From Micromonospora sp. NBS 11-29 (GTDB taxonomy: Bacteria > Actinomycetota > Actinomycetes > Mycobacteriales > Micromonosporaceae), in NCBI RefSeq assembly GCF_002140155.1, contig NZ_NAPR01000004.1:706169-739050 (forward strand): a stretch of 32,882 nucleotides of DNA. Reading direction: 5' to 3'. The notes below the pieces were generated by a model, which saw only the letters and a program-made list of their open reading frames with translations, ran no database searches and was not told the origin of the DNA. A program made the position numbers and the translations under genes. Below, piece by piece: positions 16,966 to 22,864 of this stretch. Every line of letters starts with the position of its first letter. The first letter of the stretch is position 1.

Positions 16966-17023
16966 GGTGTTAAGCGGGGGCCCCTCCTATACCGGAGGCG
17001 TTAACAGGGTCCCCTTCCTTACA
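16966..17023. repeat. Dispersed palindromic repeat, copy 3
   Basis: It starts GGTGTTAAGCGGGGGCCCC, has the core TATACCGGAGGCGTTAACAG and ends in TCCCCTTCCTTACA. The TTA of CTTACA is the TAA stop codon of the minus-strand symporter gene, so the repeat overlaps the coding end. It lies between the ABC ATPase start and that symporter end. Confidence 0.85.
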
Positions 17024-18659
17024 AGCGGAGGGATTCGGGGGTGTGCAGGCGGAGCATGGTGGCGCCGACGTCGCGGGGCAGTCGCCGCCGGCTCGCCATC
17101 GAGACCACCACCATCACCGTGAACGCCAACGGCACCGTCCACGCCGCCGGCTGGGTGGTGAGCGTCGCCGGCCAACCGGTCAGCGGCGGCCCGAGCACGG
17201 TGAGCAGCACCGCGCCGATCGCCGCGCCGCCGCCGACCAGCACCCCGGCGGCGGCGCCCAGGTCGGTCAGGCCGCGCCACCAGATGCCGAGCACCAGCAG
17301 CGGGCAGAAGCTGGACGCGGCGACCGCGAACGCCAGCCCGACGACCTGCGAGACGTCCAGCCCGGAGACGTTCAAGGCGAGCACCGCCGGCACCGCGCCG
17401 GCGATCACCGTGGCGAGTCGGAAACCGCGGACCGAGCCTCGGCCTAGCACATCCGTGGAGATCACCCCGGCGACGCTGGTGAGCAGGCCGGACGAGGTGG
17501 AGAGGAAGGCCGCGAACGCCCCGGCGGCGACCAGCGCGGCGAGCAGCCGGCCGGTGGTGCCGTCGCCGAGCGCCGCGCCGGGCAGCAGCACCACCACCGC
17601 GTCGGTCTGACCGGTGACCAGCAGGTGTGGGGTGTAGATCCGGCCCAGCACGCCGTAGATCGTGGGCAGCAGGTAGAAGACGCCGACCAGGGCCAGCACC
17701 ACCAGCGTGGTGCGCCGGGCGGCGGCCCCGTCGGGGTTGGTGTAGAAGCGCACCAGTACGTGCGGCAGCCCCATCGTGCCCAGGAACGTGGCCAGGATCA
17801 GCGAGTACGTCGCGAACAGGCTGCGGTCGTCGTCGCCCGCGGTGTCCGGCAGCAGCCATTCGGTGGCGCCGATCGCCGCGCCGGACACCTCCGGCACCGG
17901 GTCACCGGCGGCGAAGTCGAGTCGGTCGCCGGGGCGTACCTCCCGCACGTCGCCGTCGGGCAGGGTGAGCGTCGCGCGGTGCTCGACCACCACGGTGGTC
18001 GCGGTCCGGAACGCCGGCCCGTCGGGCGGAGTCACCGCCGGGCGGGCGTCGGCCTGCCACTGCAACGCCAGGAAGATCGCGGGTACGGCGAGCGCGGTGA
18101 GCTTCAGCCAGTATTGGAACGCCTGCACGAAGGTGATCGCCCGCATGCCGCCCAGCGCCACGTTCGCGGTCACCACCACGGCCACCAGGAGCGCCCCGAC
18201 CGGGTAGGGCGACCCGGTCAACGTGGCCAGCGTCAGCCCCGCGCCCTGCAACTGCGGCACCAGGTACAACCAGCCGATGAAGATCACGAAGACGGTGGCG
18301 ATGGTGCGCAGCCGGCGCGAGCCCAGCCGCACCTCGCAGAAATCCGGCAGCGTGAACGCGCCGGAGCGGCGCAGCGGGGCGGCCACGAACAGCAGCAACG
18401 CCAGGTAGCCGGCGGCGAAACCGACCGGGTACCAGAGCACGTCGACGCCGTACTTGAGGATCAGCCCGGCCACGCCGAGGAAGCTCGCGGCCGACAGGTA
18501 CTCCCCGCCGATCGCGGCCGCGTTCCAGGTCGGGCTGACCGCGCGGGAGGCGACCAGGAAGTCGGACGTGGTGCGGGCCAGCCGCAAACCGTAGAAGCCG
18601 ATGCCGACGGTGACCAGCGTGACCGCGACGATCGCCGGGACCACGTACCCGTTGGTCAT
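17019..18659 (-). CDS. Sodium/solute symporter 2 (acetate-type) with long extracytoplasmic loop
   Basis: A 546-residue SSS transporter with about 13 helices, a paralogue of the gene at 9425. Shared blocks are DFLVASRAVSPTWNAAAIGGEYLSAASFLG (about 33-62), GMRAITFVQAFQYWLK, GTMGLPHVLVRFYTNPDGAAARR and STSSGLLTSVAG. Residues about 201-280 form a polar, beta-rich insertion containing TLTLPDGDVREVRPGDRLDF, roughly twice as long as the matching loop in the paralogue. ATG at 18659 overlaps the stop of the DUF485-like gene by one base. The TAA stop comes from a dispersed repeat. It likely transports a small carboxylate; the loop may alter selectivity. Confidence 0.9.
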   Translation of the reverse strand: MTNGYVVPAIVAVTLVTVGIGFYGLRLARTTSDFLVASRAVSPTWNAAAIGGEYLSAASFLGVAGLILKYGVDVLWYPVGFAAGYLALLLFVAAPLRRSGAFTLPDFCEVRLGSRRLRTIATVFVIFIGWLYLVPQLQGAGLTLATLTGSPYPVGALLVAVVVTANVALGGMRAITFVQAFQYWLKLTALAVPAIFLALQWQADARPAVTPPDGPAFRTATTVVVEHRATLTLPDGDVREVRPGDRLDFAAGDPVPEVSGAAIGATEWLLPDTAGDDDRSLFATYSLILATFLGTMGLPHVLVRFYTNPDGAAARRTTLVVLALVGVFYLLPTIYGVLGRIYTPHLLVTGQTDAVVVLLPGAALGDGTTGRLLAALVAAGAFAAFLSTSSGLLTSVAGVISTDVLGRGSVRGFRLATVIAGAVPAVLALNVSGLDVSQVVGLAFAVAASSFCPLLVLGIWWRGLTDLGAAAGVLVGGGAAIGAVLLTVLGPPLTGWPATLTTQPAAWTVPLAFTVMVVVSMASRRRLPRDVGATMLRLHTPESLRL

Positions 18660-19096
18660 CAGCGTTCCGGCCGCTGGACCAGGTCGACGAAGTCCTGCTC
18701 GTTGCGTTCGGCCAGCCGCACGTACGCCCAGCCGACCACGATCAGGAACGGGAAGGAGGCCACCCCGAGCAGCAGCCACGGCAGGTTGACCCCGAGCACG
18801 GTGACCCGGCCGACCGACGGCGCGATGGCGAACAGCCACGGCAGCCCGCCCAGCCCGATCAGCACCAGCAGGCTCAGCCGCAGCGCGAGCGAGAGTTGGG
18901 CGCGCATCAGCCCCTGCACCAGGGCCTCGCCGACCCGGGTCTGCTGGGCCAGCTCGGAGCGGGTGCGGTCGGCCCGGCTGCCCGAGCGGGAGACCTCGGC
19001 CAGCACGATCCGGGTCCGCTGCGGCGCGCGGGGGCCGGGGACGGCGGGCGCCTCGACGGGCCGTCCCGCCGGCTGCTGTTCGTCGGCTGCGGTCAT
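18659..19096 (-). CDS. DUF485-like small membrane protein 2, symporter partner
   Basis: A 145-residue protein with a Pro/Ala-rich cytoplasmic head, an Arg-rich amphipathic stretch and two membrane helices (LSLALRLSLLVLIGLGGLPWLF and LPWLLLGVASFPFLIVVGWAYV), ending YVRLAERNEQDFVDLVQ. Position and topology match the DUF485 partner at 11076, although sequence similarity is weak. ATG at 19096 lies 7 nt after GAGACT; a perfect TTGACA (19131-19126) stands 16 nt upstream of that, giving a promoter with a leaderless start. An array of DnaA-box-like 9-mers lies further upstream. Confidence 0.85.
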   Translation of the reverse strand: MTAADEQQPAGRPVEAPAVPGPRAPQRTRIVLAEVSRSGSRADRTRSELAQQTRVGEALVQGLMRAQLSLALRLSLLVLIGLGGLPWLFAIAPSVGRVTVLGVNLPWLLLGVASFPFLIVVGWAYVRLAERNEQDFVDLVQRPER

Positions 19097-19103
19097 CCCC
19101 GGC

Positions 19104-19131
19104 AGTCTCGCCTGCCCGGCGCGAATGTCAA
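19104..19131 (-). promoter_or_regulatory. Promoter of the DUF485/symporter 2 operon
   Basis: The -35 element TTGACA (19131-19126) is perfect. The spacer is 16 nt and the -10 element GAGACT (19109-19104) keeps the key A and final T. Seven bases separate it from the ATG at 19096. The consensus match is direct; activity is inferred. Confidence 0.55.
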
Positions 19132-19149
19132 GCGCAGCGGGGACAGCCC

Positions 19150-19222
19150 TGTGCACAACCTGTGGATAACCGCTCATACCTGTGGACAACCCGGTGGATG
19201 AACCCGGAGTCGTTGTGGACGA
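19150..19222. promoter_or_regulatory. Array of four DnaA-box-like 9-mers
   Basis: TGTGCACAA (19150), TGTGGATAA (19161), TGTGGACAA (19181) and TGTGGACGA (19214) lie in one orientation. The second and third are exact complements of the DnaA boxes TTATCCACA and TTGTCCACA; the others differ from the latter by one base. The offsets of 11, 20 and 33 bp are close to whole helical turns. The array sits 19-91 bp upstream of the TTGACA of the symporter promoter and ahead of the divergent Uma2 gene. Confidence 0.65.
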
Positions 19223-19266
19223 TCGAACGGAATGTCAGGGTGAGCCGGTAGAGAGGAGGTGTGACA

Positions 19267-19818
19267 GTGACCAGCCCGGCACGACCTGGCAGCGGTGACG
19301 CCTGGACGGTGGACGACCTCCAGGACCTCCCCGAGGACGGCCAGGACTACGAGATCTTCGACGGGAGCCTGCTCGTGTCCCCACACGCGGACGTCCGCCA
19401 CGGGGCGATCGCCAACCGCCTCCGCCGGCTCCTCGACCGGCAGGCACCGGCCGGCCTGCTCGTCGGGCAGGACGTCGGGGTCAGCGCGAAACGCTCGTCC
19501 TACTTCGTACCCGACGTCTTCGTCGCACACGAGGACGCCTTGGAGCGGGGCGGCGCGGCGCTCGCTCCCGCCGACGTGCTGCTCGTGGTCGAGGTCGTCT
19601 CCCCCGGCAATGCCGGCCGCGACCTGGTGCTCAAGCGTCACGAATACGGTGTGGCGGGCATTGGGCGATACTGGCTCGTGGAGCCGCGCAAGCAGACCGT
19701 GACCGTGCTGGAGAACGTCGGCGCAGGCTACCGTGAGTCGGCCGTCCTCTCCGTCGCCGACGTCTACCGCACCGATCACCCGTTCCCGCTCGTCCTGCCG
19801 GTCGCCGACATCTTCTGA
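19267..19818 (+). CDS. Uma2 family (DUF820) putative endonuclease
   Basis: A 183-residue protein with the PD-(D/E)XK-like Uma2 fold. WTVDDLQDLPEDGQDYEIFDGSLLV is the usual opening; then YFVPDVFVAHED carries the Asp, VVEVVSPGNAGRD the Glu, and LKRHEYGVAGIGRYWLVEP the Lys/Tyr helix. Uma2 proteins are widespread in actinobacteria and cyanobacteria, but their substrate is unknown. GTG at 19267 is preferred to GTG at 19261 because the strong GGAGGT at 19255-19260 touches the first but is 6 nt from the second. A strong hairpin follows the stop. Confidence 0.88.
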   Translation: MTSPARPGSGDAWTVDDLQDLPEDGQDYEIFDGSLLVSPHADVRHGAIANRLRRLLDRQAPAGLLVGQDVGVSAKRSSYFVPDVFVAHEDALERGGAALAPADVLLVVEVVSPGNAGRDLVLKRHEYGVAGIGRYWLVEPRKQTVTVLENVGAGYRESAVLSVADVYRTDHPFPLVLPVADIF

Positions 19819-22102: not shown

Positions 22103-22864
22103 TCAGCGGCTCCAGTCCTGCTTGGCGGCGCGCACCAGCTTGTCCTTCAACTCCCGGGTGTGCCGACGGCTCACCGGCAGTTCGCTCCCGTCGATCACCA
22201 CCACGTAGCCGGAGTTGACCAGCCGCAGCTCCGCGATCAGCCGCAGTTGCACCAGGTAGGAGCGGTGGATCCGGACGAAGCCCGCGTCGGCCCAGCGCTC
22301 CGCGAGCGTGGCCAGCGACACCCGGACCAGGTGCGAGCCGTCCGCGGTGTGCAGCCGGGCGTAGTCGCCCTGCGCCTCCACCCAGCGCACCGCCGAACGG
22401 GGCAGCATCCGGGTGGTGCCGGCCAGCTCGATCGGGATGGTCGGATCCTCCTCCGCCCGGGCCAGCGCCGCCGGGTGCGACGGCACCACCCGCGAACCCG
22501 TCACCCGGCGCAGCGACTCGGCCAGCCGCTCGGCGCGGACCGGCTTGCGGACGTAGTCCGTGGCGCCCAGGTCGAATGCGTCGGCCGCGCCGTCGTCGTA
22601 CGCGGTGACGAAGACGATCGCCGGCGGCCGGGCGAACCGGCGCAGCACCCGGGCCAGCTCCATGCCGTCCAGGCCGGGCATCCGGATGTCGAGGAAGACC
22701 ACGTCCACGTCGTCGTCCCGGAGCACCCGCAGCGCCTCGGTCGCGTCGCCGGCCGTGTGCAACCGGGCCACCCGGGGATCGGCGCGCAGGTGGTAGGCCA
22801 GCTCGTCGAGAGCCGGCGGCTCGTCGTCCACCGCCAGCACCCGGAGGAATCCGGAGACCGTCAC
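22103..22864 (-). CDS. LytTR family response regulator
   Basis: A 253-residue response regulator. The receiver domain (about 8-122) has AVDDEPPALDELAYHL, the phospho-acceptor Asp in VVFLDIRMPGLDG, FVTAYDDGA and YVRKPV. The LytTR DNA-binding domain (about 140-250) contains WVEAQGDYARLHTADG, FVRIHRSYLVQL and LPVSRRHTRELKDKL. GTG at 22864 overlaps the stop of a 12-codon micro-ORF that links it to the kinase gene. LytS/LytTR pairs of this type are often linked to carboxylate or pyruvate transport, so the symporter operon 3 kb away is a plausible target; this is inference. Confidence 0.93.
   Translation of the reverse strand: MTVSGFLRVLAVDDEPPALDELAYHLRADPRVARLHTAGDATEALRVLRDDDVDVVFLDIRMPGLDGMELARVLRRFARPPAIVFVTAYDDGAADAFDLGATDYVRKPVRAERLAESLRRVTGSRVVPSHPAALARAEEDPTIPIELAGTTRMLPRSAVRWVEAQGDYARLHTADGSHLVRVSLATLAERWADAGFVRIHRSYLVQLRLIAELRLVNSGYVVVIDGSELPVSRRHTRELKDKLVRAAKQDWSR

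Follow-up and report, generated by a model that had tools for sequence, protein, structure and literature searches.

An array of DnaA boxes lies between divergent genes in Micromonospora sp. NBS 11-29, about 103 kb from dnaA, and is best explained as a DnaA-box cluster outside oriC that is linked to the origin by position. Its predicted role is most likely the titration of DnaA, a reading to which we assign a probability of a little under one half (about 0.47). A role as an operator of the neighbouring operon follows closely behind, and the array may serve both purposes at once. The cluster reading is favoured by a box spacing that is near-invariant in Micromonospora and at least four further genera, despite changes in the linker and in the genes on either side. 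Against it stand the three or four boxes, few beside the 12 of oriC, and the fixed distances to the first gene in one class of relatives, which favour a promoter role there.

The array and its boxes

The window analysed is the whole stretch of 32,882 nucleotides. At positions 19150-19222 its minus strand carries three good DnaA boxes (A, B and C) and a weaker fourth (D). Box B (19161-19169, TTATCCACA) and box C (19181-19189, TTGTCCACA) match TTRTCCACA exactly, and box A (19150-19158, TTGTGCACA) and box D (19214-19222, TCGTCCACA) each have one mismatch. B starts 11 bp from A, C 20 bp from B and D 33 bp from C, leaving gaps of 2 bp between A and B and 11 bp between B and C. The initial annotation, which had described four DnaA-box-like 9-mers in one orientation at these offsets, two exact and two with one mismatch, was confirmed on re-reading; its term "in phase" is a fair one, as B, C and D lie 11, 31 and 64 bp from A, or about 1, 3 and 6 helical turns. 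Box A of the source strain is near-palindromic (plus strand CTGTGCACA). High-affinity DnaA boxes of actinomycetes are given as TT(G/C)TCCACA (PMC4285127), and the E. coli consensus as TTATnCACA (PMC5742627).

Allowing one mismatch, TTATNCACA occurs six times in the window against 1.96 expected, a count reached in one of 100 shuffles, and three of the six near-matches fall within 40 bp. The 232,652 bases around dnaA contain 49 boxes with at most one mismatch, compared with 23-28 in simulated sequence. They also contain four clusters of at least three boxes in three regions (two in oriC, one at 632.0 kb, and the array), and such clusters were absent from all five first-order Markov simulations of this region. 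A genome-wide count of such clusters, proposed as a check alongside the initial annotation, was made by scanning all 6,473,810 bases for a strict triple, defined as three TGTGnAnAA cores in the same orientation with gaps of 0-25. The triple was found at two places in 6.47 Mb, and the reversed-pattern control gave none; oriC escapes this pattern, its boxes being mixed in orientation and form. The sole other strict same-orientation triple of cores in the genome lies at C38:162604-162665 (L047, L296). Over the whole genome the enrichment of single strict TTRTSCACA sites is only mild (40, compared with 23 for the reversed pattern), but 17 of the 40 sit on contig C33 between 614 and about 725-726 kb, a segment of 111 kb that makes up 1.7% of the genome. 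The array is not a product of chance.

Conservation of the array

A search of 121 Micromonospora genomes with a 271-bp region containing the array gave a match in 113, many of them over the array alone. A sequence-only model built from the 30 best loci matched all 121 at E ≤ 0.01, where weak matches may be any pair of DnaA boxes. One locus per genome was read in 119 of the 121, with G104 and G115 left out. Conservation in relatives, the second check that had been proposed, was borne out: 97 of the 119 loci had all three cores TGTGnAnAA with the offsets of 11 and 20, comprising 30/30 rows of the model and 67 of the 89 loci outside it. The other 22 loci deviate in one box (20 loci) or two (2 loci), some by a 1-bp shift. 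Among 41 records of named genomes with the array pattern, 41 were Micromonospora.

The mean majority fraction was 0.981 over the cores, 0.686 in the linker between B and C and 0.546 just left of A. It was 0.69 at box positions 3 and 5, which account for most of the variation among relatives and are the positions where DnaA boxes tolerate change. Box A reads TTGTCCACA in 37 of the 119 relatives, TTGTGCACA in 22, TTATTCACA in 21 and TTGTTCACA in 16, the rest having other forms; box B is TTCTCCACA in 59, a form that occurs twice in the source genome's oriC; and box C is TTATCCACA in 68 and TTGTCCACA in 35. Box D is optional: within 120 bp to the right of C, another TGTGGAnR box was present in 53 of the 119, at an offset from C of 32-33 bp in 27 relatives and of 54 bp, equal to 33 plus two helical turns, in 19.

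For the rest of the family, 20 of the stronger matches were fetched, representing 7 of 44 genera. The array was found at the same locus in genera g8, g10, g32 and g36, with offsets of 11 and 20 bp (21 in G151). A response regulator is the first gene beside it in 9/9 loci read from g10, g32 and g36; this protein shares 81-84% identity over 223-225 residues and has its start some 36-46 bp to the left of the array, with the DUF485 gene beginning 1.9-6.3 kb beyond it on the same strand. The array lies between the LytTR and DUF485 genes in G127 (g8) and G121 (g2), with box B altered in the latter. The locus of G180 (g40) contained none of the reference genes and was not counted. At the level of the order, 28 of 150 genomes matched at E ≤ 1e-5, nine of them outside the family, the best at 7.4e-7 compared with 1.9e-16 for the source genome; as the model was trained on the genus, distant homologues may escape this search.

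A separate array was observed in genus g11 (loci L240-L247), where five or six DnaA boxes in the same orientation, at offsets of 11-12, 12, 11, 21-22 and 11 bp, lie upstream of dnaB. It starts 108-116 bp from the first residue of DnaB in 8/8 loci (Pfam DnaB on L240). That g11 had retained the array studied here without the symporter was considered and rejected, the g11 matches being this other locus upstream of dnaB in 8/8. A symporter match at E ≤ 1e-100 was obtained in 156 of 200 family genomes; none of the 156 belongs to g11, and at least three g11 genomes were among those without such a match. Upstream of dnaB in Micromonospora, one box was present in 8 of 13 loci, two to four in 4 and none in 1; the source genome has three. 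In the source genome the dnaB match (C33:663213-665954; L279, L034) is split into two halves that are separated by about 1.4 kb inside an open frame of 967 aa, as would be expected for an intein; split matches occur in other Micromonospora as well.

Distance from oriC

In the source genome, dnaA lies at C33:622416-622898 and oriC at C33:621.3-621.7 kb; the latter is flanked by dnaN and dnaA and contains 12 boxes of at most one mismatch. The identification of the array as oriC, already denied in the initial annotation, was rejected: the array does not lie between dnaA and dnaN, and the 12-box region flanked by DnaN and dnaA is 103 kb off. The accompanying description of the array as far from dnaA is relative and calls for correction, the distance being about 103 kb.

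Distances to dnaA were measured in 44 of the 121 genus genomes, picked for few contigs. The array and dnaA shared a contig in all 44, and the array lay 98-150 kb 5' of dnaA in 42 (median 112.7 kb), four of these distances (G021, G036, G043 and G081) using a wrap-around with the contig taken as circular. In the exceptions, G008 and G012, the array is retained at 349 and 287 kb from dnaA on the opposite arm. Because the LytTR gene remains within about 4-10 kb of the array in both, a block has moved, and movement with the symporter alone was rejected. In g2, g8, g10, g32 and g36 the array was located by hand 106-143 kb 5' of dnaA in ten same-contig genomes; in G220 the two are on different contigs. 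The neighbouring genes move together with the array, and plain conserved synteny, without selection on distance, may account for this spacing from oriC.

Two other groups of boxes were observed near the origin. Six DnaA boxes in two opposed groups occur at C33:632024-632155 (L033), some 1.4 kb downstream of parB; the open reading frame that follows them has no Pfam match. The second-best model match in the genome, at C33:614156-614209 (L032), consists of two exact TTATCCACA boxes 31 bp apart and lies about 7 kb from oriC; matches 8-9 kb from dnaA were also found in G018 and G012.

Turnover of the flanking genes

On its left the array is bordered by the DUF485 gene (18659-19096, minus strand; ATG at complement 19094-19096), whose Pfam DUF485 match (E = 1e-5, 25.9 bits) falls under the family cut-off of 28. 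This is the first gene of a leftward operon with a sodium:solute symporter family protein (17019-18671, minus strand; Pfam SSF, E = 3.2e-42), the start codon of which is unsettled. On the right follows a rightward gene for a Uma2-family protein (19261-19818, plus strand; Pfam Uma2, E = 1.3e-29). A LytTR response regulator is encoded at 22103-22864 (minus strand), and in some relatives its 3' end lies directly to the right of the array.

Many relatives have right neighbours other than Uma2. The nearest recognised gene on the right was LytTR in 54 of 119 loci, Uma2 in 23, CarbReg in 10 and none in 32; on the left it was DUF485 in 80, a receiver-domain protein in 27, CarbReg-like in 1 and none in 11, the class "none" taking in contig ends and unrecognised genes. 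A start resembling that of an ECF sigma factor was seen by eye on the right in L060, L068 and L069. In all 108 loci with a recognised left gene, the nearest one pointed leftward and thus away from the array. When a proper response-regulator query was used, a full-length regulator was found directly left of the array in 37 of the 119 loci, giving DUF485 in 80, the regulator in 37 and CarbReg-like in 1, with G009 at a contig edge. The connection that the initial annotation made with a "symporter operon" is less tight than it seems: in these 37 Micromonospora loci and in the nine of g10, g32 and g36, the response regulator is the gene that adjoins the array.

The regulator has the domains Response_reg and Trans_reg_C and is followed by a HAMP-HisKA kinase (L183) and, in a g10 genome, by a DUF4153 protein (L248). 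Because G028 retains a regulator fragment, and nothing more of the gene, next to DUF485, the gene content suggests that the regulator was lost in the DUF485 class. The ancestral order is presumed to have been LytTR-array-(regulator-kinase-DUF4153)-DUF485-symporter.

A possible operator of the leftward operon

The strongest alternative, also raised in the initial annotation, is a DnaA-controlled promoter. The array would then act as an operator, with DnaA bound to it activating or repressing the leftward operon, whether regulator-kinase-DUF4153-DUF485-symporter, as in the presumed ancestor, or DUF485-symporter, as here, and would couple uptake or sensing to the replication state. We regard this predicted role as a real but tentative possibility. 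The box A end of the array faces the leftward gene, the uniform orientation of the left neighbour (108/108) suits an operator equally, and at some of the B. subtilis clusters DnaA is reported to regulate transcription (PMC4447404).

The two classes of left neighbour point in different directions. A putative DUF485 promoter was recognised by eye at 19104-19131 on the minus strand, with TTGACA at 19131-19126, a 16-nt spacer and GAGACT at 19109-19104, 7 nt before the ATG, so that the transcript would be leaderless; a sigma-70 consensus scan of 18900-19500 reported no promoter. In the DUF485 class, the start-to-start distance from TTGACA to box A was 12-13 bp in 14 genomes and 23-24 bp in 32, and was scattered from 9 to 83 bp in 26 others, while the spacing of A, B and C hardly moves. 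Distances of 12, 24, 36 and 48 bp do not correspond to helical phasing at 10.5 bp. Against an operator, then, the distance to the promoter varies in this class despite a consensus -35 hexamer, and the array has altered little where a different first gene has taken the place beside it.

The response-regulator class is more uniform: 36 of its 37 genomes have the regulator's start codon at exactly 42 bp from the start of the model (202 bp in G081), and in 35 a -10-like hexamer, TACA(G/C)T, lies exactly 37 bp start-to-start from box A. Between this hexamer and box A, 22 bp from the latter, is a conserved box-like sequence, ATCTCCACG (consensus of the 35 genomes; for example locus L189 of G002). 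These fixed distances favour an operator, although the 36 genomes are relatives and the distance may be partly inherited. A DnaA sink is ranked first because the promoter distance is loose in the larger, DUF485 class while the array is kept. The operator comes a close second because the distance is rigid in the response-regulator class, an observation that slightly lowered our estimate for the sink and slightly raised that for the operator.

Both roles could be combined in one specific arrangement, in which a rigid three-box complex is an early-duplicated DnaA sink and also a replication-state input to a two-component and nutrient-uptake operon; in this full form we consider the idea unlikely. 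If it were true, DnaA would gate signalling or carbon uptake in these filamentous actinomycetes. Genus g11, in which a symporter ortholog was not found, has a five- or six-box array upstream of dnaB instead.

Readings of low probability

The initial annotation had further allowed that a different regulator reads TGTGGANAACC repeats here and uses the array as its operator; the neighbouring LytTR protein would be an example. LytTR operators consist of direct repeats of [TA][AC][CA]GTTN[AG][TG] 12-13 bp apart. The array has direct repeats about two turns apart that resemble such operators, and LytTR is the nearest recognised right gene in 54 of 119 loci. This reading was rejected as highly improbable, since no match to a single consensus repeat was present on either strand in 19061-19330; moreover, G012, G096, G119, G008 and G017 retain the array although their LytTR gene lies at a distance of 3.9 to 12 kb, and the variants of the array are those of DnaA boxes, some common to oriC.

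Less likely again is a DARS-like site, which would reactivate ADP-DnaA and had also been suggested at the outset. A compact three-box core with fixed spacing would suit it; in DARS, however, box I must oppose boxes II and III (PMC5742627), and the boxes of the array are co-directional. A strict core in the opposite orientation within 110 bp was found in none of 119 relatives on the right and in one on the left. An opposite reading of the near-palindromic box A is thinkable in the source strain and not in relatives with TTATTCACA, TTGTTCACA or TTGTCCACA, so the DARS architecture was rejected on box orientation. A chance cluster or mutational leftover, for which the only mild genome-wide enrichment of single strict boxes might speak, has negligible probability given the rarity of the triple and its conservation among relatives.

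Titration of DnaA as the proposed function

If the array is an oriC-linked cluster that titrates DnaA, the spacing of A, B and C would let DnaA molecules sit on one face of the DNA, where they would bind head-to-tail as a small cooperative oligomer. DnaA of M. tuberculosis is reported to show no binding to a single box, and that of S. coelicolor to bind one weakly (PMC4285127). The array would be duplicated soon after initiation, and for that reason its new copies would bind free DnaA and damp re-initiation, a mechanism first suggested for datA and later for the clusters of Streptomyces and B. subtilis. Because the array lies immediately 5' of the leftward operon's promoter, bound DnaA may also modulate that operon (DUF485-symporter here, regulator-kinase in relatives).

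Clusters near oriC are described as repressing untimely initiation in S. coelicolor and B. subtilis (PMC4585315, PMC5742627). Removal of six B. subtilis clusters led to early initiation according to the review PMC5295017, although elsewhere it notes that no clusters of significant function have been identified in B. subtilis. The accumulation of E. coli DnaA boxes towards oriC has been argued to suit titration (PMC12371093).

Being small and well defined, the array lends itself to tests of initiator titration in filamentous bacteria that produce antibiotics, and it may connect DnaA with an operon for two-component signalling and transport. To our knowledge, the control of replication initiation in actinomycetes beyond Streptomyces and mycobacteria has been little explored, and among the literature matches listed no such cluster was reported in Micromonospora.

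Comparison with known systems

DARS1 and DARS2 of E. coli resemble the array in having a three-box core with fixed spacing and are described as differing from it in the inverted box I, all boxes of the array sharing one direction. Closer to it is datA of E. coli, the essential boxes of which are co-directional (PMC5742627), like those of the array, and which likewise has a conserved position near oriC. In contrast, datA is said to need an IHF site located between boxes, where the array has gaps of 2 and 11 bp and its one IHF-like match overlaps boxes A and B. This match to the IHF consensus, at 19156-19168, has one mismatch and is the sole such match in the window; IHF-like matches in the window total 17 against 16.0 expected, which is the level of chance, and from its sequence the array is unlikely to provide for the IHF need of datA.

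The B. subtilis clusters (Okumura et al. 2012, as cited in PMC5295017 and PMC4447404) are intergenic, and several lie upstream of genes, as the array does. The six strongest regions outside oriC in that species are reported to have 4-11 predicted sites per 300 bp (PMC4447404), compared with three or four boxes at rigid spacing here. The S. coelicolor clusters (Smulczyk-Krawczyszyn et al. 2006, as cited in PMC4585315 and PMC5742627) share with the array an actinomycete host, a box of the TTGTCCACA type and a location near oriC but outside it. The array has two of the features that mark the Streptomyces and B. subtilis clusters, a location close to oriC (103 kb here) and intergenic clustering of several boxes outside it. 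By analogy, it is predicted, at odds just short of even, to be an oriC-linked cluster of the kind known from Streptomyces and B. subtilis.
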